From: Gemmatimonas sp.
GTDB taxonomy: Bacteria > Gemmatimonadota > Gemmatimonadetes > Gemmatimonadales > Gemmatimonadaceae
DNA: 64,000 nt
Assembly: GCA_025361705.1 (NCBI GenBank)
Contig: JANYJW010000008.1
Location: forward strand, 1-64,000
Direction: 5' to 3'
Shown one piece after another: positions 45,532 through 55,703 of this stretch (its first letter is position 1; each line of letters begins with the position of its first letter). A program made the translations under genes and the position numbers. The notes under the pieces were generated by a model. The model saw only the letters and a program-made list of their open reading frames with translations, ran no database searches and was not told the origin of the DNA.

Positions 45532-46650
45532 ATGACCTCGCATCGTTCGCTCCTTCTGGCCGTCGCGGTTGTCGGCGTCGTGTCTTCCGTGGGCGCCCAG
45601 GGCGCCACGCCGCCGGCGGCGCCGCCCACCGTGGCGCCGGTCACCGTGGCGCCGGTCGCGGCGGTTGCCGATACTCAGCTGTCGGTGAAGGCGACGACAA
45701 AAGACGGCAAGCCGGTGAGCGCCGGCAAGCGCGCGGCGCGCAAGAGGCACGAAGCCAAGGGCGCCAAGGGCGCCAAGGGCGCCAAGGCCACCGCCGCTCC
45801 AGCGGACAGCGAGGCCAGGCTCGACTCGTTGCTCGACCTCCGCTGGCCCGTGAAGGGCCCAGAGCCGCTGCCCGGGTCGATTCTGCCCGGCAAGCGCATC
45901 GTGGCCTACTACGGCAACCCGCTGTCGAAGCGCATGGGCGTGCTGGGCGAGTACGCCCCCGACCAGATGCTCGCCATGCTCGACGCCGAGGTGAAGGCGT
46001 GGACACTGGCCGACCCGTTGACACCGGTGCAGCCGGCGCTGCATCTCATTGCCGTGGTGGCCCAGGGCGGCCCGGGGACAGACGGCAAGTACCGCGCCCG
46101 CATGCCCGACACGCTCGTCGAGCGCGTGGCGTCGTGGGCCGCCAAGCGCAACGCGCTGGTCTTCCTCGACATCCAGGTGGGCAAGAGTACGCTGCAGGAC
46201 GAGCTGCCGCGATTGGAGAAGTTCCTGTCGCGCCCCAATTTCCACCTCGGCATCGACCCCGAGTTCTCCATGAAGGATGGGGGCCTGCCGGGCAAGAAGA
46301 TTGGCACCTACGATGCGTCCGACGTGAACTACGCGTCCCGTTTCCTGCAGGACATCGTGACACGATACAAGCTGACGCCCAAGGTGCTCGTGGTGCACCG
46401 CTTTACTCGTAAGGGCGTGACGAACTCCAAGGACATCACGCTCGACCCGCGCGTGCAGGTGGTGATGGACATGGACGGCTTTGGCGCGCCGCACCTCAAG
46501 CGCTCCACCTTCCGTTCATGGATCAAAGCCGAGCCGGTGCAGTTTGTCGGATGGAAGCAGTTCTACAAGCCGCGCAATGACAATCCGCGCACGACGATCG
46601 CAGAGATCCTGCGGCTCAATCCGAAGCCGATCTACATACAGTACCAATAG
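45532..46650 (+). CDS. Secreted protein of unknown function, possible TIM-barrel hydrolase-like fold
   Basis: 372 residues. Signal peptide MTSHRSLLLAVAVVGVVSSVGAQG, then an Ala/Pro/Lys-rich spacer with a KGAKGAKGAKA repeat (three GGCGCCAAG-type nonamers at about 45760-45792). The folded part starts near 118: PGKRIVAYYGNPLSKRMGVLG, HLIAVVAQGGPG, ALVFLDIQVGKS, HLGIDPEFSM and VVHRF. The alternating beta-strand/acidic-end pattern suggests a (beta/alpha) barrel with DPE near a strand end. I do not recognise an enzyme activity. The gene is convergent with the isomerase-like gene at 46675, 24 bases apart. Confidence 0.75.
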   Translation: MTSHRSLLLAVAVVGVVSSVGAQGATPPAAPPTVAPVTVAPVAAVADTQLSVKATTKDGKPVSAGKRAARKRHEAKGAKGAKGAKATAAPADSEARLDSLLDLRWPVKGPEPLPGSILPGKRIVAYYGNPLSKRMGVLGEYAPDQMLAMLDAEVKAWTLADPLTPVQPALHLIAVVAQGGPGTDGKYRARMPDTLVERVASWAAKRNALVFLDIQVGKSTLQDELPRLEKFLSRPNFHLGIDPEFSMKDGGLPGKKIGTYDASDVNYASRFLQDIVTRYKLTPKVLVVHRFTRKGVTNSKDITLDPRVQVVMDMDGFGAPHLKRSTFRSWIKAEPVQFVGWKQFYKPRNDNPRTTIAEILRLNPKPIYIQYQ

Positions 46651-46674: not shown

Positions 46675-47493
46675 TCAGCGCGTGTAGCAGTCGCGTACCA
46701 CGCCCACGGCGCGCGGAATTGCTTCGCCATACGGGCCGTCGCCGCCGAGCCGCATCTCCACGGAGTACCAGCCGTCATAGGCAAGGGCGCGCAGCGCAGC
46801 GCCGATGGCAGCATGCGGCACGGTGTCGGTGCTCCCCACCGGCGCGAGATCCACCTCGCTGACATGCACGTGGTGCACATGCCGCATGACGGGCGCCAGC
46901 GCGGCCTCGGTGGTCTCGCCGCTGAGCGCCAGCGCCGCCGTGTCGAGGTGCACGCCAAAATTCGGATGCCCCACGGATTCGGCGAGCACGGCAGCCTCCG
47001 CGGCCGTCGTCACAAAGTCGCATCCATAGCGCGGTGGGTTCGGTTCGATGCACAGCCGCACACCGCGCGCGGCGCACCCTTCGGCCACCGGCCGCAACGC
47101 ACGTGCGGCGGCGCTGACCGCCGACGGCATCGAGCGTTCACCCCGCTTGCGATTGCCCGGCGCGCCGAGCACCAGCACGCTGGCGCCGCAACGCTGCGCG
47201 AGCGCCCCCATGTCGAGCAGGTGCCGCTGCGTGGCGGCCACGACCGCTGCGTCACCGAAGAGCGACAGTTCCGCATGTCCGTACAGGATGGCCTGAAACG
47301 CAACCACGTCGCACCCGGCATCGCGCCACCACGCGGCGTACGACTCGGCGGCACCGTCGGCGACGCGCGGTGCCTTGCTCCACACTTTGGACGGTGCGAG
47401 CTCGACGCCCCGCACCTCTGCGGCGCGCAGCACCGTTGCGACCGCCGCATCGTCGGTGACCGGCCACGCAAGATTGGAGACGGCGATCTTCAC
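46675..47493 (-). CDS. Sugar phosphate isomerase/epimerase-like TIM barrel protein
   Basis: 272 residues. AP-endonuclease-2/xylose-isomerase-like TIM barrel (COG1082). Metal or substrate residues in CIEPNPPRYGCDF, FGVHLDTAAL, VMRHVHHVHVSEVD and DGWYSVEMRLGG. The family includes inosose, hydroxypyruvate and keto-sugar isomerases; the reaction cannot be read from sequence. It overlaps the upstream NAD-epimerase gene by 4 bases and is last in a seven-gene block. The short gap to the convergent gene at 46650 shows no hairpin. Confidence 0.82.
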   Translation of the reverse strand: MKIAVSNLAWPVTDDAAVATVLRAAEVRGVELAPSKVWSKAPRVADGAAESYAAWWRDAGCDVVAFQAILYGHAELSLFGDAAVVAATQRHLLDMGALAQRCGASVLVLGAPGNRKRGERSMPSAVSAAARALRPVAEGCAARGVRLCIEPNPPRYGCDFVTTAAEAAVLAESVGHPNFGVHLDTAALALSGETTEAALAPVMRHVHHVHVSEVDLAPVGSTDTVPHAAIGAALRALAYDGWYSVEMRLGGDGPYGEAIPRAVGVVRDCYTR

Positions 47494-48269
47494 GCCCCCT
47501 CCCCGCCGGCCGCACGCCGCTCGGTCGCAACAAAAGCGGTGATGGCATCGAGCGTCGACGCCGCGTCATACCAGTAGCCGTCGCGCCCGCCGAACTGCGC
47601 GGCGTACAGGCTGCGCATGTCGTAGCGCGCCGGCAGCACGCCGGCCGACGCCGTGAGTGCACGACCAAATGCGCGCGCGGCGACGTCGCGCATCGCGGTC
47701 GGCTCCACCGACAGATTCACCAGCGGAATGCCCGCCTTGCGCACGCGTGCGATGTCGCCCCACAGACGCTCGAGTTCATAGAATTGAAACTCGGCGTCCG
47801 GATGAATGGACTCCACGGCGTTGTCGTGCAGCAAGTCGAAGATCGCATTCTTCTTGAGCCCGGGTCCGAAGAGGCCTGGCAGGCGCACCACGGTACAGTC
47901 GAAGCGCTCCTGGCAGAACATCTCGAGCGCATACCGGTGCCTGCCGTACGCCTGCCCCTCTCCCGGCGCGATCAGCGTTCCCTCGTCGACGTCGATGGGC
48001 ATCGGGTACGCGTCGGCGCTCGAGATGAGCACCAGGTGGCCGATGTGCGCGGTCGCGAGGACGTCCGTGAGCCGCTCGATGCCCGCGCGGTCGCCTGCGG
48101 GATCGCGGTTGGCCTTCCACTTCTCGGCGCGCACGCCGGCGCAGAGCACCAGATCGAACTTCGCACCGCGCATGGCGTCGATGTCCGTGGACCGGAACAT
48201 CGCGTCAAACGTGTGCGCACGGCGCACGGTGCTGCCAATGAGTCCGGTCCAGCCGATCAGCGCATCCAT
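47490..48269 (-). CDS. NAD(P)-dependent epimerase/dehydratase-like protein
   Basis: 259 residues. The extended-SDR fold is abbreviated: the N-terminal glycine motif is GWTGLIGST, then LVLCAGVRAEKW, HLVLISSADAYP (the Ser), AYGRHRYALEMF (the Tyr-x-x-x-Lys has become Y-x-x-x-R) and VVRLPGLFGPGLK. The Lys-to-Arg change may lower dehydrogenase activity or alter substrate choice. It overlaps the isomerase by 4 bases and lies 4 bases after a GT2 gene. It likely modifies a nucleotide sugar for the adjacent glycosyltransferases (inference). Confidence 0.82.
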   Translation of the reverse strand: MDALIGWTGLIGSTVRRAHTFDAMFRSTDIDAMRGAKFDLVLCAGVRAEKWKANRDPAGDRAGIERLTDVLATAHIGHLVLISSADAYPMPIDVDEGTLIAPGEGQAYGRHRYALEMFCQERFDCTVVRLPGLFGPGLKKNAIFDLLHDNAVESIHPDAEFQFYELERLWGDIARVRKAGIPLVNLSVEPTAMRDVAARAFGRALTASAGVLPARYDMRSLYAAQFGGRDGYWYDAASTLDAITAFVATERRAAGGEGA

Positions 48270-48273
48270 GGCG

Positions 48274-49077
48274 TCACCGGGGATCGTAGATGCCGCGCAC
48301 CGATCGCCAGAGCGTGCGCAGGATCTTCAGGTTGCCGCGCCAGCCGCGGATCTTTGACGGCACCGGGCCGTCCGCCGGATAGGCGCGCGTCACCGGCAGT
48401 TCCTTGACGGAGAAGCCGAGCCGCCCGGCGCGGATGGCGAGGTAATAGTGCAGCTCGTAGCCCGCAAACACGTCGCGGAACGGCTGCACGCGCGCGTCGA
48501 GGAGCAGGCGACGGCTGTAGGCGCGAAATCCGTTGGTGGTGTCGGTGTACCGCGTGCCGGCCGCCAGCGAGATGAGCGGCGCATGCAGCAGCGTCACGCC
48601 CAGATGCCGCGCGATGGGTGTATTGACGCCTCGTCCGCCCGGCACGTAGCGCGAGCCCTGCACGTGATCGGCGCCTTCGCGCAGCGCCGCGACAAATGCC
48701 GGCACGGCGCGCGCATCGTCCTTGCCGTTGCCGTCGATCGTGACGATGCCCGCGTATCCCTCGCGCAGGCACCAGGCCAGCGCCATGCGCATCTGCGCCG
48801 ACAACGCCCCGGGCCCTCGCTTGACGAGCAGCGCACGCACGCCATGCGCCTGGAGGAATGCGGGGTCCAGCGCGCCATCGGTGCTTCCGCCATCTGCGAT
48901 GACCACGTCCACCGGCAGCTGCATGGCGGCCATGTCGCGCACCTGGGCGCGAACGCGCTCCCCTTCGTTGAGCACAAAGACGCACACGGCATAGTCGTGC
49001 CGACGCTCGCCGCACGCCACGACATCGCACGCGGGAAGCTCCCACGCCGCCATCAATGACGGGTCGACACCGAGCAT
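48274..49077 (-). CDS. Family 2 glycosyltransferase
   Basis: 267 residues from the ATG at 49077; a GTG at 49083 is possible, and an extension to 49152 overlaps the upstream gene. The GT-A fold shows YAVCVFVLNEGERV, VVIADGGSTDG, IVTIDGNGKDD (the metal DxD position) and VQGSRYVPGGRGVN. Aromatic residues near the end (FAGYELHYYLAIRAGR) are common in the family. No membrane helix is obvious. The GT2 pair suggests assembly of a lipid- or protein-linked glycan. Gap of 25 bases to the upstream GT2. Confidence 0.86.
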   Translation of the reverse strand: MLGVDPSLMAAWELPACDVVACGERRHDYAVCVFVLNEGERVRAQVRDMAAMQLPVDVVIADGGSTDGALDPAFLQAHGVRALLVKRGPGALSAQMRMALAWCLREGYAGIVTIDGNGKDDARAVPAFVAALREGADHVQGSRYVPGGRGVNTPIARHLGVTLLHAPLISLAAGTRYTDTTNGFRAYSRRLLLDARVQPFRDVFAGYELHYYLAIRAGRLGFSVKELPVTRAYPADGPVPSKIRGWRGNLKILRTLWRSVRGIYDPR

Positions 49078-49102
49078 GTTCACGCGGGCCCGACCCGGCC
49101 GC

Positions 49103-50077
49103 TCACGGCTCGCGCACCACGTTGGGGCGGTCGTCGCGCAGCAGCACGGCACTCGAGCGCTCCTCGCGCACGTAGTAGCCGGGTTCGGTGCCGAAGCGCC
49201 GCGGCAGCCGTCCCACGTATTCGCAGAGTACGGCGAGAATGATGGAGAGAAAGAAGAACTGCGCCGCGCTCGTCAGCGACATCGTCGCCCACCCCGGCGC
49301 GACGTCGTCGCGCACGGCGTAGACGGCGAGCACATACGCGGCATATGCCACGTTGAGCACCGCCGCCGCGACGCCCAGCAGGCTGGCGAGGCGCAAGGGA
49401 TGCGCCGTGTTGTCGAGCACCATGCCCAGGGCCAACGACACCGCCTCGCCCGGCGTGCGTGAGCGCGACCGGCGCGTGTGGCCGATGGGATCGTACGGAA
49501 ACGCCGCGCTGGCGTACCCGATGTATGTCGAGAAGACCCGCAGGCGCGAGCCAGTCTCGCGCAGCTTGTTCAGCGCGTTGAGCGCCTGCCGCGAGAGGCA
49601 GCGGAAATGCGTGGCGTTGGCCGGCACATCGAGCTGCATCACGCGTCGGGCATACCAGTAGAAGCCGGCAGCCCCGGCGCGCAGCCACCACGGATCGCCG
49701 GCGCGCGACCGCCGCACGCCAAGCACCACGTCGGCGCCCTCGCGGGCTCGCTGCACGAGCGCCGGGATAAGCGCCAACGGATCGGCCCCAGGCGAGAGCG
49801 TCACCACGAAGTCGCCAATGGCGCTATCGAGGCCGGCGGCGATGGCCTGCTCTTCGCCGAACTCGCGCGACAGGTGCAGCACGCGCACGCCGTCATGGCG
49901 CGACAGCACGGCATCCCACAGCGTCGGGTCGATGCGCGACCCGTCGTCGACGAGGATCAGTTCAAAGTGCCGATACGTCGCCCGCAGCAGCTCGACCGCC
50001 TCGGCGACGAACGGCGCCAGCATAGCGCCGGGATCGTGCACCGGCGCGACGACCGACACAAAGACATCGGCCGTCAT
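49103..50077 (-). CDS. Family 2 glycosyltransferase with C-terminal membrane helices (GtrB/DPM-like)
   Basis: 324 residues from the ATG at 50077. GT-A domain: VSVVAPVHDPGAML, LILVDDGSRIDP and VLHLSREFGEEQAIAAGLD. Two hydrophobic segments follow (LASLLGVAAAVLNVAYAAYV and AAQFFFLSIILAVLCEYVG), the architecture of polyprenyl-phosphate glycosyltransferases such as GtrB. It would make a lipid-linked sugar at the inner membrane. The start overlaps the stop of the FAD oxidoreductase by 4 bases. Confidence 0.88.
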   Translation of the reverse strand: MTADVFVSVVAPVHDPGAMLAPFVAEAVELLRATYRHFELILVDDGSRIDPTLWDAVLSRHDGVRVLHLSREFGEEQAIAAGLDSAIGDFVVTLSPGADPLALIPALVQRAREGADVVLGVRRSRAGDPWWLRAGAAGFYWYARRVMQLDVPANATHFRCLSRQALNALNKLRETGSRLRVFSTYIGYASAAFPYDPIGHTRRSRSRTPGEAVSLALGMVLDNTAHPLRLASLLGVAAAVLNVAYAAYVLAVYAVRDDVAPGWATMSLTSAAQFFFLSIILAVLCEYVGRLPRRFGTEPGYYVREERSSAVLLRDDRPNVVREP

Positions 50078-51237
50078 CGGATTCCGTCGCTGTCGAGCAT
50101 TGCCGTGAGCGCCTCCTCCACGTCGTATACGCTGTCGATCTTGGCGCCGACCACGGTGACCAACCCCGGCGCTCCATCGACCGGCCGCGCCAGGATGGGT
50201 CGGCTGTCGTCCACGTCGCTGCGCGGGAGGATGGTCTTCACCTCCCACAGCGACTTGAGATAGCGCGCCGCCGCCATTTCCGGAAGGTAACGCGCGGCGT
50301 CGCGCTGCATGTGCGGCGCGTGCGACGGCGGCAGGGCGCGCAGGACGGCGTCACCGCGCACCGCGTGGCCGTCGGCGCCGCCGTCGGGCCAGCGCGCGTG
50401 CGGCGTGTAGCGCACATGGCTCAGCGAATGCACGCCGGCGGCAGGAAACGGCATCGCCGACCAGAACGGGCCGTCCATCACCGTGACCCCCAGACCGCGC
50501 AATGCCGGCGGCGGCTCGATGAGCGCCAGTTCGGTGAGCTCGTGGACGAGCGGCACCAGCGGCAGGCCAGAGTCGGCCAACAGGTCGTTGAGCGCCGAAT
50601 ACGTGCAGAGCACGACGACATCGGCGTCCGTGGCTTCGCCCGGCGCGTCGCCCCACTGAACGCGCAGTCGCCGCGCGCCGCCCGGGAGCACCGCGCGCAC
50701 CGCGCGCACCGCGCGCACCGCGCCGCCGGTGCACACCTGCACGCCGGCGGCGTCCATGGCGGCCGACACCGCCTGCGCCAGCGCGGTGGCATCAAAGGCG
50801 CACTCTTCCACCTCAAAGACGGCCTCCACGTGGTCCGCATCGAAGCGGCGCGCCTGCGCGGCGTCTGCCGGTTGCACGGGCGCGCCGATGCGGCGACAGA
50901 ACTCGGCAAATTGCCCCGCCGTGACCTTCGACTGCCGGCGCGCGATGGCGTACAGCTTGGTGAAAGACCGATCGATGGCCGCGGGGTACGCGGCAATGAA
51001 GCGCGGATAGTTGGCACGCGAACGCAGCGACGTGAGGATGCTGCGCGGATAGTGGTAGCCGCCGTGCACCCGCGCCTGATTGTTGTATGAGGCCCGGGTG
51101 AGGAGGGCGGGTGCGCGCTCGCACAACGTGACCGTGCGCAGGCGGCGCGCAAGAAACGCCGCAATGTGGGCACCGTAGAAGCCGCCTCCCACCACCACGG
51201 CATCGGCATCGCGCGGCGGCCGCTGGACCTCAGTCAC
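50074..51237 (-). CDS. FAD-dependent oxidoreductase (DAO-like)
   Basis: 387 residues from the GTG at 51237, which overlaps the HD-GYP stop (GTGA). The dinucleotide motif VVVGGGFYGAHIAAFLARR (14-32) and a C-terminal GAKIDSVYDVEEAL segment where the flavin often contacts. It contains three tandem AVR units (GGAVRAVRAVRAVLPGG) from nonamer repeats at about 50695-50725. Similar oxidoreductases appear in O-antigen and surface-glycan clusters, where they may oxidise amino groups or hydroxyls. The substrate is unknown. Confidence 0.82.
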   Translation of the reverse strand: MTEVQRPPRDADAVVVGGGFYGAHIAAFLARRLRTVTLCERAPALLTRASYNNQARVHGGYHYPRSILTSLRSRANYPRFIAAYPAAIDRSFTKLYAIARRQSKVTAGQFAEFCRRIGAPVQPADAAQARRFDADHVEAVFEVEECAFDATALAQAVSAAMDAAGVQVCTGGAVRAVRAVRAVLPGGARRLRVQWGDAPGEATDADVVVLCTYSALNDLLADSGLPLVPLVHELTELALIEPPPALRGLGVTVMDGPFWSAMPFPAAGVHSLSHVRYTPHARWPDGGADGHAVRGDAVLRALPPSHAPHMQRDAARYLPEMAAARYLKSLWEVKTILPRSDVDDSRPILARPVDGAPGLVTVVGAKIDSVYDVEEALTAMLDSDGIR

Positions 51238-52700
51238 GAGACGAAATAGTCGCCGACGCGAATACTGTAGTACTCGGCGTCCACGGTCTCCACAATGGAC
51301 CGCACAAAGCGGCCGCTCGCGTCGGTGTCGCCGAGGTCGGCGGCGATCCCGGGATGGAGGAGATTGCCCTCGGCGTCGCTGATGACGTAGACGAGCGGAC
51401 GATTGCCGAGTTCGGGATCGGGATTCACGCCGCGCGACACCGCCAGCTCGAAGCTGTCGAGCAGCAGCACCGTACCCACAGGATACACGCCAAGCATCTC
51501 GACGAAGGCGCGCACGCACGTCGCGTCGAGAAAGCTGTCGGCCGTGTCGCGCATCTCGGCCACGTACTCCGCCGGCCGCTTCGACGGCGTGCGATAGCCG
51601 AGGTTGGTGGTGGCCGCGTCGAACTGCTCGATGACGCTCACGATGCGGCTGTACAGCCCCACCGGCCGCGGGCGCAGGCGCCGCGGGTAGCCGCCGCCAT
51701 CGGGCTTCAGATGGTGCTCGTACGCGACGAGCATCGCGTGGTATGGATATTCCCCGCCCTCTCGCACCTGGAACAGCGTGAGCACGCCGAGCCACGTGTG
51801 CCCGGTGATGATGCGCCACTCGTCCGCCGTCAGCGTGCCCTTGGCGTGCAGCACCTCATCCGCAATGCGTGCCTTGCCGCAGTCGTGAAAGAGCGCGGCC
51901 AGCCCGAGATCGTACAGCTGCCCGCGGGAGAGTCCGAGCCGGCGGCCCAGCGCGACGGCAAAGATGCAGACATTCACCGCGTGCGTGAACGTGGGATCCT
52001 CGTAGTCGCGCACCGTGGTGAGGCCAAGCATCGACGCTTCATCGGTGAGAATGCGGTCGACGATGAGCTGCACCGTGCGCTTGAGCGCGCGCAAGTTGGG
52101 TCCTTGCCCCTGGGCAATGGCGCGCATCACGTCGGCCGCGGCGGCCACCGAGCGCGCGTATGCGCCCTTGGCGAGCGCCGAGGGCGCGGCGTCCACACCG
52201 CCGCCGCTCTCCTCGGCCTGCACGGGCGGCTCGAGCTCGAACACCCGCACCCCGGCCGCGTGCAACCGCTGGCGCAGCGCGTGGTGCCGCACCGTGGCCG
52301 AATCGCCGGCTGGCGCATTGAGCGCGGCGATGAGCGCCATCCAGTCCGCCGCCGTGGCCGCGCGGTCGGCGCGCAGCACGCCGGTGCCGCTCGCCCGACA
52401 CTGCGCAATGAGGTACGCGACCATCGCGTAGTTGTCGAGGTCGAGGCGCAGCCGCGTCTGATTCACAAAGAGGAATTCGCCGGCAATGCGCAGCTCCATT
52501 CCACCGTCGCCCGCGCCGAGCATGGCGGCCGCCAACTGAAGGTCGCGCACCGACTTCTGCACCACCGGGTTGTCGGCCGGGTAGAGCCGGGCACAGCGCA
52601 TGGCCCCGCAAAAGGCCTGCACCAGCGCGCGGCCGACGGCGCGCACGGCAGCATCGCCGCCGTGGTCGCCCATCGCGGTCGCGCGGCTGGGACGCGTCAC
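51234..52700 (-). CDS. HD-GYP domain protein with N-terminal LYPxxNP domain
   Basis: 488 residues, GTG start at 52700 overlapping the HEAT gene stop. The C-terminal HD-GYP domain has H240, H272-D273 in FHDCGKARIADEVL, H301 (ITGHTW), H329/H330, and GGGYP (335-339), followed by D361. HD-GYP proteins hydrolyse c-di-GMP or related dinucleotides, so a second-messenger phosphodiesterase role is expected. The N-terminal region (about 15-130) has CARLYPADNPVVQKSVRDLQ and ELRIAGEFLFVNQTRLRLD, resembling the N-terminus of the upstream HEAT protein. Position inside a glycosylation operon suggests control of that pathway. Confidence 0.87.
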   Translation of the reverse strand: MTRPSRATAMGDHGGDAAVRAVGRALVQAFCGAMRCARLYPADNPVVQKSVRDLQLAAAMLGAGDGGMELRIAGEFLFVNQTRLRLDLDNYAMVAYLIAQCRASGTGVLRADRAATAADWMALIAALNAPAGDSATVRHHALRQRLHAAGVRVFELEPPVQAEESGGGVDAAPSALAKGAYARSVAAAADVMRAIAQGQGPNLRALKRTVQLIVDRILTDEASMLGLTTVRDYEDPTFTHAVNVCIFAVALGRRLGLSRGQLYDLGLAALFHDCGKARIADEVLHAKGTLTADEWRIITGHTWLGVLTLFQVREGGEYPYHAMLVAYEHHLKPDGGGYPRRLRPRPVGLYSRIVSVIEQFDAATTNLGYRTPSKRPAEYVAEMRDTADSFLDATCVRAFVEMLGVYPVGTVLLLDSFELAVSRGVNPDPELGNRPLVYVISDAEGNLLHPGIAADLGDTDASGRFVRSIVETVDAEYYSIRVGDYFVS

Positions 52701-54442
52701 GCGCCTTCTCCGGCACGCGTGAGCGCGGCACGTACCGCGCGCCGCACGAGCGGCTCGTCGCTGTCGGCCCCAGCGTGCAGCGCCGCTCGCGCCGATGGCG
52801 AGTTGATGCGCGCAAGGGCGGCCGCGGCGCAGGCGCGCGTTTCGGGGTCTGACTTGCGCTTGAAGAAACCCTTGGGCCCCACGAGCTGTGCCTCGAGCCA
52901 CGGCACGCCCGCCTCGCCGCTCAGCACGCCGAACAGCTCGAACAGCGCCCGCCGCTCGTTGGCGTCCATGTCGCGCACGTCGCGCCCCTGCGTCCACTCG
53001 GCGATGCGCGGCAGCACCGCCCGATGCACGCCGGTGGCAAGCACGCGCAGCGCCGTGGTGCGCAACGCCGCACTGGTGTCCGACAGCGCGCGCTCCACCC
53101 CGGCAAGCGCCCGCGAGGTGCCGATGGCGGCAAGGGCAGCGAGGGCCGCCGCGCGGCGCGGCTCTGCGTCGTGCCCGAGCTGCCGCACCAGCGCCACCAC
53201 CGCCCCCTCCAGCCGTTCGGCGCCACACCGGTGCATCGCCTCGAACGCCACGGTGTCGTGCTCGGCGTTGACGAGCTTTACCAGCTGCGCGGGATCGGCG
53301 ATGGCCAGCCGCTCTGCGGCCGCGGCGTACAGCGGCCGCAGGTCGTGGTGCCGCGACTCCGCGCTCCACTGCAGCATGGCGCCAAGTGCGCCAGCCTCCA
53401 GGCGCGCCAGCAGCTCCGCGACCTCGGCCGCCGACGGACGTTCGTCCGCCGAGTCCAGGGATTCGAGCAGCGGCCCCAGCAGCGCCCCGTCGCTCAGGCG
53501 CGATGCCAGCCGCTCGACGGCAGCGCGCGTTTCGGGGACAACCGCCGGCGCGCGACGCACGGCAACTGCCGACTCGCGCAGCAGGTGCGCCAGCGCGCCA
53601 AACGACCGCGACGACAGGTGCAACAACATCATCGCGTCGAGGTGGCGCACCACCTCGTCCCGCACCGCCGCATCGCGCTGCACCTCGAAGATGTCGAGCA
53701 GCACGTCGGTCACGTCGCGCCGCAACTCGGCGTCGTACTCTCCGGCAATCCCTTCGCGCAGGTGGCGCATCGCCTCGACGCGTGCAAGCTCGGCGGTGGC
53801 ATCATGCGACGCTGCCACGCGCATCACGTTGGCCAGCCCGTCGGCACGGGCGGCGGCGCGCTGCCTCCCCGCCTCCACGGCCGCGCGCGGATCGGCGCGG
53901 ATGACCGTGGTGGCCGGCCAGCGCCCCGGCGTGGCCGAGGGATCGAGCGGTACGCCCTCGCTGCTGATGGTGTCGACGTACCGGTACGAGAGGCACTCGA
54001 ACTCCTGCATCCAGAACAGGGTGAGCACGTCATCGTCGGCGTCCTGCAGGCGGCGCACCTTGGGGATGATGCCCAGCAGCGCATCGAGTTCGTCGCCCTC
54101 GAACCCGCGCGCCAGCACCAACTGACGCACGCCGTCCTTGAACAGCGTCCACGGGAGCGAGTCGGAGGCCTTCTCGGACTCCTCGAGCACCACGACGCCC
54201 CCGCAGGTGAACTGCGTGTCCGATACCTGGAGCGTGATGGCGTCGGCGTGAGCCCACACGGCGCGGAATGCTGCGCGCAAGGACTCAAGCGCCTTCAGGT
54301 ACGTCGGATTGGTGACCGGATACAGCTGGTGCATGCGCACCGTCTTGTCGAGCTGGCGCAGGACGTCCTGCACCAGCTCCGGCGCACACGGAAGCTCCCC
54401 CGTCTCCGCCACATCGTCGTGGTCGCCCTCGTCGCTCGCCAT
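52697..54442 (-). CDS. HEAT-repeat protein with N-terminal LYPxxNP domain
   Basis: 581 residues. The N-terminal region (about 25-130) has VRMHQLYPVTNPTYLKALES and ITLQVSDTQFTCGGVVVLEE, the same pattern as the HD-GYP neighbour. From about 220 to the end, helical repeats with charged hairpins (HDAEPRRAAALAALAAIG, LSDTSAALRTTALRVLA, GADSDEPLVRRAVRAAL) are HEAT-like. HEAT repeats usually bind proteins. It is the first gene of the seven-gene minus-strand unit. The ATG at 54442 is well placed; the upstream gap to the divergent KAS III-like gene should contain its promoter. Confidence 0.85.
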   Translation of the reverse strand: MASDEGDHDDVAETGELPCAPELVQDVLRQLDKTVRMHQLYPVTNPTYLKALESLRAAFRAVWAHADAITLQVSDTQFTCGGVVVLEESEKASDSLPWTLFKDGVRQLVLARGFEGDELDALLGIIPKVRRLQDADDDVLTLFWMQEFECLSYRYVDTISSEGVPLDPSATPGRWPATTVIRADPRAAVEAGRQRAAARADGLANVMRVAASHDATAELARVEAMRHLREGIAGEYDAELRRDVTDVLLDIFEVQRDAAVRDEVVRHLDAMMLLHLSSRSFGALAHLLRESAVAVRRAPAVVPETRAAVERLASRLSDGALLGPLLESLDSADERPSAAEVAELLARLEAGALGAMLQWSAESRHHDLRPLYAAAAERLAIADPAQLVKLVNAEHDTVAFEAMHRCGAERLEGAVVALVRQLGHDAEPRRAAALAALAAIGTSRALAGVERALSDTSAALRTTALRVLATGVHRAVLPRIAEWTQGRDVRDMDANERRALFELFGVLSGEAGVPWLEAQLVGPKGFFKRKSDPETRACAAAALARINSPSARAALHAGADSDEPLVRRAVRAALTRAGEGA

Positions 54443-54572: not shown

Positions 54573-55703
54573 ATGTCAACGACCTACGCGGCCATTACCG
54601 GCTGGGGCAAGTGCATGCCGCCCGCCGTCCTGACCAACGACGATCTTTCGACGTTCCTCGAGACCAATGACGAGTGGATCACCTCGCGCACCGGCATGAA
54701 GGAGCGCCGCGTCTCGCATGTCCCGGCCATGGAACTGGCCACCGTCGCCGCGGCGCGCGCCCTGGCGTGTGCTGGCCTGGACGTGGGCGACGTGGACCTC
54801 ATCGTATACGGCAGCACCAGTTACGAGGAGCAGGCGCCCAACAGCGCGTCGGGCGTGCAGTTCGCGCTTGGGGCCACGCGCGCGGCCGCCATGGACGTCA
54901 ACAGCGCCTGCACGAGCTTCCTGTACGGCCTGTCCTCCGCCACAGCGATGATCCGCACCGGCATGGTACGCAACGCCGTCGTCATCGGCGTCGAGCTCGT
55001 CAGCCGGTACATGGACTGGAGCAACCGCAATGTGGCCGTGTTGTTCGGCGACGGCGCCGCCGCGGTGGTGCTGCAGGCCAGCGACCGCGAAGAAGGGGTG
55101 CTCGGCAGCGTGCTGGGCTGCGATGCCGAGGCGCGCGCCACGCTGCGCATCCGCGGATTCGGCTGCGGCTACGCCAATCGCGGCATCACCCTGGGCGACA
55201 CGCTGTGGGATTTCGACGGCCCGCAAATTTTCAAGCGCGCGGTCAAGGGCATGAGCGAAGCGTCGGCCAAGGTGATGGCCCTGTGCGGCGTCACGGCCGA
55301 CCAGGTGGATCTCTGCATCCCGCATCAGGCAAACCTCCGCATCATCGAAGGCGTGGCCAAGTACGCCGGCGTGCCGATGGAGAAGGTGATGCTCACAGTG
55401 CACAAGTACGGCAACATGAGCGCCGCCACCGTGCCCGTGGCGCTGGTCGACGCGCTCGAGGAAGGACGCGTGCGCCCAGGCGCCACGCTGCTGATGCCGG
55501 CATTCGGCGCGGGCCTCACCTTCTGCTCCCTCGTGGTCAAGTGGGGCGATCGCGTGACGCCACGCGGCACCTCCGACCGCGCGCTACCGCCCGCCACGCA
55601 GACCGCGCTGGAGATGGTCAATGACATCCGCGCGCAGCAGGACGCACATGGCCGGTCGCACGCCGGGCTGACGTCGATGGTCTTTGTGGAATCGCAATCC
55701 TGA
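54573..55703 (+). CDS. 3-oxoacyl-ACP synthase III-like ketosynthase (FabH/OleA type)
   Basis: 376 residues from the ATG at 54573; longer open frames upstream are antisense to the HEAT gene. The Cys-His-Asn triad of KAS III is present: C113 in DVNSACTSFLYGL, H251 in CIPHQANLRI and N281 in KYGNMSAATVP. Length exceeds the typical 317-340, with extra residues around YEEQAPNSASGVQFALG and a C-terminal tail. It condenses an acyl-CoA starter with malonyl-ACP, or two acyl chains as in OleA. With the GMC oxidoreductase convergent next to it, a lipid or specialised metabolite role is possible; housekeeping fatty-acid initiation is equally possible. Confidence 0.85.
   Translation: MSTTYAAITGWGKCMPPAVLTNDDLSTFLETNDEWITSRTGMKERRVSHVPAMELATVAAARALACAGLDVGDVDLIVYGSTSYEEQAPNSASGVQFALGATRAAAMDVNSACTSFLYGLSSATAMIRTGMVRNAVVIGVELVSRYMDWSNRNVAVLFGDGAAAVVLQASDREEGVLGSVLGCDAEARATLRIRGFGCGYANRGITLGDTLWDFDGPQIFKRAVKGMSEASAKVMALCGVTADQVDLCIPHQANLRIIEGVAKYAGVPMEKVMLTVHKYGNMSAATVPVALVDALEEGRVRPGATLLMPAFGAGLTFCSLVVKWGDRVTPRGTSDRALPPATQTALEMVNDIRAQQDAHGRSHAGLTSMVFVESQS

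Follow-up and report, generated by a model that had tools for sequence, protein, structure and literature searches.

DprE1 and DprE2 catalyze the redox epimerization of decaprenyl-phosphoryl ribose, and DprE1 is a VAO-type enzyme, unlike the DAO fold. HD-GYP phosphodiesterases such as PmGH share an HD dyad, His and Asp metal ligands, a conserved Lys and a GYP motif. In three-component extracytoplasmic glycosylation systems, auxiliary redox and epimerase enzymes are believed to modify the sugar while it is bound to the lipid (PMC11127046). Here we analyze a 64,000-nucleotide stretch of the Gemmatimonas sp. assembly GCA_025361705.1 (contig JANYJW010000008.1, positions 1 to 64,000; hereafter the window), in which a HEAT-repeat gene and an HD-GYP gene are followed on the minus strand by five genes for putative sugar-lipid enzymes. 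The initial annotation saw in these seven genes a dedicated surface-glycan system with built-in second-messenger control. Judging from gene content, synteny and distribution, the seven-gene unit is very probably composed of two independent modules, the HEAT + HD-GYP pair and the five-gene cassette, fused locally and within a restricted lineage. The genes are, in order of transcription:

52697-54442, minus strand: HEAT-repeat protein of 581 amino acids (Pfam HEAT_2, C-terminal HEAT repeats; 46% identical to the copy in the trp operon, G000:C34)
51234-52700, minus strand: HD-GYP protein of 488 amino acids, GTG start (Pfam HD_5, 1.2e-15, with HD also matched; PDB matches 5z7c, 4mcw and 4r8z)
50074-51237, minus strand: DAO-type oxidoreductase dependent on flavin adenine dinucleotide (FAD), cassette gene 1, GTG start (Pfam DAO, 6.4e-23)
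49103-50077, minus strand: GT2a, membrane GtrB/ArnC-type polyprenyl-phosphate glycosyltransferase, ATG start (Glycos_transf_2; NCBIfam PgfS, 2.6e-31)
48274-49077, minus strand: GT2b, AglJ / dolichyl-phosphate hexose transferase-like protein, ATG start (Glycos_transf_2; NCBIfam AglJ, 3.2e-12, and DPhHxTase, 7e-10)
47490-48269, minus strand: SDR / NAD-epimerase-fold protein, ATG start (Pfam Epimerase, a weak match at 1.7e-4)
46675-47493, minus strand: TIM-barrel sugar isomerase/3-epimerase-like protein, GTG start (Pfam AP_endonuc_2, 1.4e-25; relatives of ketose 3-epimerases)

In a sample of 121 Gemmatimonadota genomes, an HD-GYP homolog was found in 80 and a HEAT homolog in 81, and 57 of 60 relatives have a homolog of the HEAT protein. 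The pair is usually nested in the tryptophan operon: trpA lies directly downstream of the HD-GYP gene, 4-100 bp away, in 70 of the 80 genomes with the pair (families f1, f2, f4, f5 and f6). The window's own genome contains such a second pair (G000:C34, L045:5710-14999), in the order trpC-trpF-trpB-HEAT-HDGYP-trpA followed by genes for a chemotaxis receptor and yqeK; these last two genes often follow trpA wherever the pair is nested between trpB and trpA. In the gene tree, the window pair belongs to a paralog clade whose separation from the trp-type copies is fully supported. The copy nested between trpB and trpA is ancestral and the window copy is a duplicate. The pair is nonetheless independent of the trp genes. 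Where these have been lost or moved (G071, G037, G058, G130, G135 and G054; L160, L161 and L163-L166), the pair persists next to yqeK or the gene for the chemotaxis receptor, and in genomes without the pair (G025, G088 and G097; L170-L172) trpB adjoins trpA with the surrounding order unchanged. In the literature searched, which left subscription journals mostly uncovered, we found no description of the trpB-HEAT-HD-GYP-trpA nest and no match for Gemmatimonadetes with HD-GYP or for Gemmatimonas with the trp operon; the three papers that mention HD-GYP, HEAT repeats and cyclic di-GMP together are, judging by title, genome papers or an overview of phages.

The cassette, for its part, is widespread without the pair. 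When genome contigs were scanned with the FAD enzyme as query, 80 loci were kept, several of them cut by contig ends; GT2a is present in 79, the epimerase-like gene and the TIM-barrel gene in 68 each, and GT2b in 65. The HEAT and HD-GYP genes accompany the cassette in only two of the 80 loci, both from the window's genus, and the pair is absent from the 77 cassette loci outside this genus; co-occurrence of the regulator and the cassette across lineages was thus not found. The hosts include Pseudomonas, Burkholderia, Azotobacter and cyanobacteria, among others, and even a member of the window's own family (G023) has the cassette with no pair beside it. On an Azospirillum plasmid, the same five kinds of gene, namely an epimerase-position gene (annotated as hypothetical), TIM barrel, GT2, FAD enzyme and glycosyltransferase, are part of a polysaccharide locus that also includes gmd and further glycosyltransferase genes. 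A recurrent arrangement in Pseudomonas, Burkholderia, Azotobacter and others (L087-L159, L182) is GT2a, FAD enzyme, epimerase-like protein, TIM barrel, in some cases a small DMT transporter, GT2b and in some cases a large membrane protein; the proteobacterial cassette of Paraburkholderia additionally encodes a small transporter similar to ArnE/F and a large membrane protein that is likely a GT-C transferase. No description of the cassette as a unit was found in the literature searched, as judged by title and with subscription journals mostly uncovered.

The gene layout itself is as initially described. All seven open reading frames were read at the predicted coordinates, with 4-base GTGA or ATGA overlaps at 52697-52700, 51234-51237, 50074-50077 and 47490-47493 and gaps of 25 bases between GT2a and GT2b and of 4 bases between GT2b and the epimerase-like gene. 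The domain calls made for the seven proteins agree with Pfam and NCBIfam, and chance gene calls are ruled out by conserved homologs for every frame. A single operon is supported as probable, the pair and the cassette being likely co-transcribed. A sigma-70 promoter scan gave no promoter-like site and a terminator scan gave two terminator-like sites, fewer than the shuffle expectation, neither scan being informative; Rfam and tRNA scans of the window returned no matches. The packing had also been taken as a sign of co-evolved function; this is not supported, because throughout the phylum the same pair is equally tightly packed where it lies between trpB and trpA. The HEAT/HD-GYP overlap is 4 bases in 5/5 core loci examined; in the trp copy of the window's genome, both this junction and the trpB/HEAT junction are 4-base overlaps. 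Such overlaps are common in this genome, and the same 12-kb stretch (L045) has others at the junctions of a gene with trpD, of trpA with the chemotaxis receptor gene and of the latter with yqeK. Since the pair and the trp genes are reciprocally independent, tight packing here reflects an inherited position and is a poor guide to function.

Comparison of the same site in relatives relies on two flanking genes:

45532-46650, plus strand: convergent gene of unknown function, marking where the cassette site ends downstream in relatives
54576-55703, plus strand: divergent gene, FabH-like (by eye), marking the upstream limit of the locus in relatives

At two cassette-free sites, in G003 (L042) and G009:C37 (L041), the paralogous pair lies between these same genes and the five glycan genes are missing. 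In G009:C37, about 27 bp separate the HD-GYP match from the convergent gene. In G003, an unrelated DUF4136 gene (L042:4074-4643) fills the cassette site, which suggests that gene content just downstream of the pair varies. The initial annotation had proposed looking for the seven-gene order in other Gemmatimonadota, and at least one further lineage of the genus does keep it, represented by G004 and the near-identical G009:C17 (L038), with the same GTGA overlap at the HD-GYP/FAD junction as in the window; the G004 contig ends inside GT2b, and GT2b is only partly matched in G009:C17. G009 has both versions of the locus and is probably a mix of two strains. In G007, the pair and the cassette are both at contig ends, adjacency of the HD-GYP and FAD genes not being visible across the contig break.

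Some of these observations weigh against a purely local and late joining of the two modules. The fused order with its GTGA overlap occurs in more than one lineage and has therefore lasted some time. The pair gene tree places the cassette-free G009:C37 among the cassette bearers (support 92 and 98). The GC content of the cassette (0.68-0.71) equals that of its flanks (0.67-0.72 for the other locus genes), with no compositional sign of recent acquisition; this measure gives no signal of a recent foreign insertion. Instead of a late insertion, the cassette may be an older feature that the two cassette-free relatives have lost. A simple single-gain history was rejected, as the cassette bearers form no clade in the pair gene tree, and the flanking-gene tree groups the cassette-free copies otherwise than the pair gene tree. 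With the cassette bearers not united in the tree, a gain followed by loss and recombination would both be possible.

Three domains are relevant to the putative function of the pair:

54059-54370, minus strand: N-terminal domain of the HEAT protein (residues 25-128), homologous to that of the HD-GYP protein (hhalign; no Pfam family)
52314-52631, minus strand: N-terminal domain of the HD-GYP protein (residues 24-129), a homolog of the HEAT N-terminal domain (hhalign; no Pfam family)
51489-51992, minus strand: HD-GYP catalytic domain (residues 237-404; ligand comparison with numbering from PmGH, PMC4159591)

The two N-terminal domains, of about 105 residues, are homologous in an hhalign comparison of family profiles (probability 92.5%, E 4.9e-7). 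Because this domain is common to both, the HEAT and HD-GYP proteins probably cooperate through it. The catalytic domain retains the metal ligands H240, H272, D273, H301, H329 and H330 as well as the conserved Lys. The HHExxDGxGYP site reads HHLKPDGGGYP, with GYP intact and Glu replaced by Leu, a change common to all window-type copies; the last metal ligand, the Asp equivalent to D305 of PmGH, is E358 and is Glu in all window-type copies. The trp-type copies checked retain the His/Asp ligands, including the last Asp, and the GYP motif, and HHE is changed to HHM (HHK in one). The genome encodes GGDEF proteins (6 matches; GGDEF matches were found in 31/31 genomes searched). The HD-GYP domain plausibly is a cyclic-dinucleotide enzyme or sensor, as first proposed. 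In another genus, a GGDEF diguanylate cyclase gene (L043:7130-8260) is located directly upstream of a second HEAT + HD-GYP copy (G028:C6) that belongs to the window's paralog clade, which suggests a cyclic di-GMP context for the pair.

Whether the window HD-GYP protein still hydrolyzes a cyclic dinucleotide is a separate matter, compatible with the composite origin of the unit. It may have lost phosphodiesterase activity and survive as a binding or regulatory protein, the role of the pair being unrelated to cyclic di-GMP turnover. We regard this as a genuine possibility, though not the one we favor. The replacement of the last ligand by Glu in every window-type paralog, when Asp is present in all trp-type copies checked, and the change of HHE to HHL point in this direction, as does the strong decrease in PmGH activity caused by D305A (PMC4159591). 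However, Glu can ligate metal, the other ligands, the conserved Lys and GYP are intact, and the D305A variant of PmGH is not completely inactive (PMC4159591). Since the loss of this Asp lowers activity in PmGH without abolishing it, the activity of the window protein is not predictable from the Asp-to-Glu change.

A different interpretation of the locus, close to that of the initial annotation, is a dedicated surface-glycan operon in which the HD-GYP paralog and the HEAT protein would sense or degrade a cyclic dinucleotide and thereby tune the GT2, FAD and epimerase enzymes. The tight packing is in keeping with it, as are the 4-base overlap to the FAD gene both in the window and in G004/G009:C17, the GGDEF proteins encoded, the GGDEF gene adjoining another copy of the pair, and the sequence divergence of the window paralog from the trp copy. 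We nevertheless consider it improbable, as G003 and G009:C37 have the pair at this site but no cassette, 77 loci outside the genus have the cassette without the pair, and the pair is joined just as tightly to trp genes; built-in second-messenger control of a dedicated system is therefore not upheld. Control of the cassette enzymes by cyclic di-GMP is not indicated; control of the glycan is possible, with no comparative support beyond the genus. It appears equally unlikely that the HEAT and HD-GYP proteins constitute an undescribed two-protein cyclic-dinucleotide module of the Gemmatimonadota, linked by their homologous N-terminal domains, whose Asp-to-Glu duplicate was recruited in one genus to control the cassette just as the original was coupled to the trp operon. 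Still less credible is the idea that the trp-nested pair regulates tryptophan synthase or answers the tryptophan supply, the window paralog having been recruited in like manner for its new neighbors. The trp synteny in 70/80 genomes with the pair, spanning at least five families, would fit this idea, but the pair stays where the trp genes are gone or moved and the trp genes stay where the pair is gone.

We thus return to a composite of two modules. The first, the duplicated HEAT + HD-GYP pair, would most likely comprise a cyclic-dinucleotide phosphodiesterase or sensor and its scaffold partner, the HEAT protein. In the second, GT2a, and probably also GT2b, would charge polyprenyl phosphate with a sugar; oxidation, isomerization and reduction would fall to the FAD oxidase, SDR protein and TIM-barrel enzyme, and other enzymes, whose genes lie elsewhere in the genome, would flip the product and carry out its transfer outside the cytoplasm. 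Within one genus, some members have the cassette immediately after the paralogous pair, probably on a shared transcript. By analogy with three-component systems that have auxiliary epimerases (PMC11127046), our best guess is that the cassette most likely produces a polyprenyl-phosphate sugar and isomerizes it through redox steps, and the initial view of the five downstream genes as a lipid-linked sugar pathway fits a GtrB/ArnC-type GT2a with predicted redox and isomerase companions. In profile searches, GT2a matches GtrB sll0501 (5eke; E 1.9e-51) and ArnC (E 2e-35). The predicted structure of the FAD enzyme (mean confidence score, pLDDT, 85) is nearest to glycine, glycerophosphate and sarcosine oxidases, and that of the epimerase-like protein (pLDDT 92) to RmlD and GalE. 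The latter protein retains GxxGxxG, and its catalytic YxxxK reads YxxxR, with the Arg invariant in 12/12 aligned family members (alignment A3). In the TIM-barrel enzyme, the metal-site residues E150, D184 and H210 are invariant and E246 is nearly so. The window cassette contains neither a flippase gene nor a GT-C transferase gene; PMT_2-type genes, which are GT-C candidates, are present elsewhere in the genome.

This locus is a clear case of misleading operon packing: the same signaling pair adjoins tryptophan genes at one site and glycan genes at another, with 4-base overlaps at both, and comparison across genomes shows it to be separable from either. Two results stand out. The FAD/SDR/TIM-barrel/GT2 cassette is widespread, and in many bacteria, including Pseudomonas and Burkholderia, its product is probably a modified polyprenyl-phosphate sugar. 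The trpB-HEAT-HD-GYP-trpA nest, found through much of the Gemmatimonadota, is the more surprising of the two.

Among known systems, the cassette is reminiscent of GtrABC and the Citrobacter youngae O1/O2 pentofuranose system (PMC11127046) in its GtrB/ArnC-type polyprenyl-phosphate sugar synthase and its auxiliary redox and epimerase enzymes, and a proteobacterial version resembles three-component systems further in that it includes a small flippase similar to ArnE/F and a large membrane protein that is likely a GT-C transferase. In contrast, the window cassette has no flippase or GT-C gene and has a second GT2, and the DAO-type FAD enzyme and the TIM-barrel isomerase are extra to the described three-component systems. 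The association of an FAD enzyme and an SDR protein with a polyprenyl-phosphate glycosyltransferase recalls DprE1/DprE2, but the cassette FAD enzyme has a DAO (glycine oxidase-like) fold, the SDR protein lacks the catalytic Lys and a TIM-barrel enzyme is added. The HD-GYP protein finds its best solved-structure matches in the phosphodiesterases PmGH (4mcw), V-cGAP3 (5z7c) and PA4781 (4r8z), with which it shares the HD dyad, most of the His/Asp ligands, the Lys and GYP. It differs from them in the HHE motif, which reads HHM in the trp copy and HHL in the window copy, in the Glu that replaces the final Asp ligand of the window copy, in the absence of an equivalent of E185 of PmGH, and in an N-terminal domain without a Pfam family that is common to a separate HEAT protein. 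Finally, the locus shares with the Gemmatimonadota trp operon the HEAT + HD-GYP pair, which lies there in its ancestral position between trpB and trpA, whereas the window pair is a separate paralog linked to other genes.

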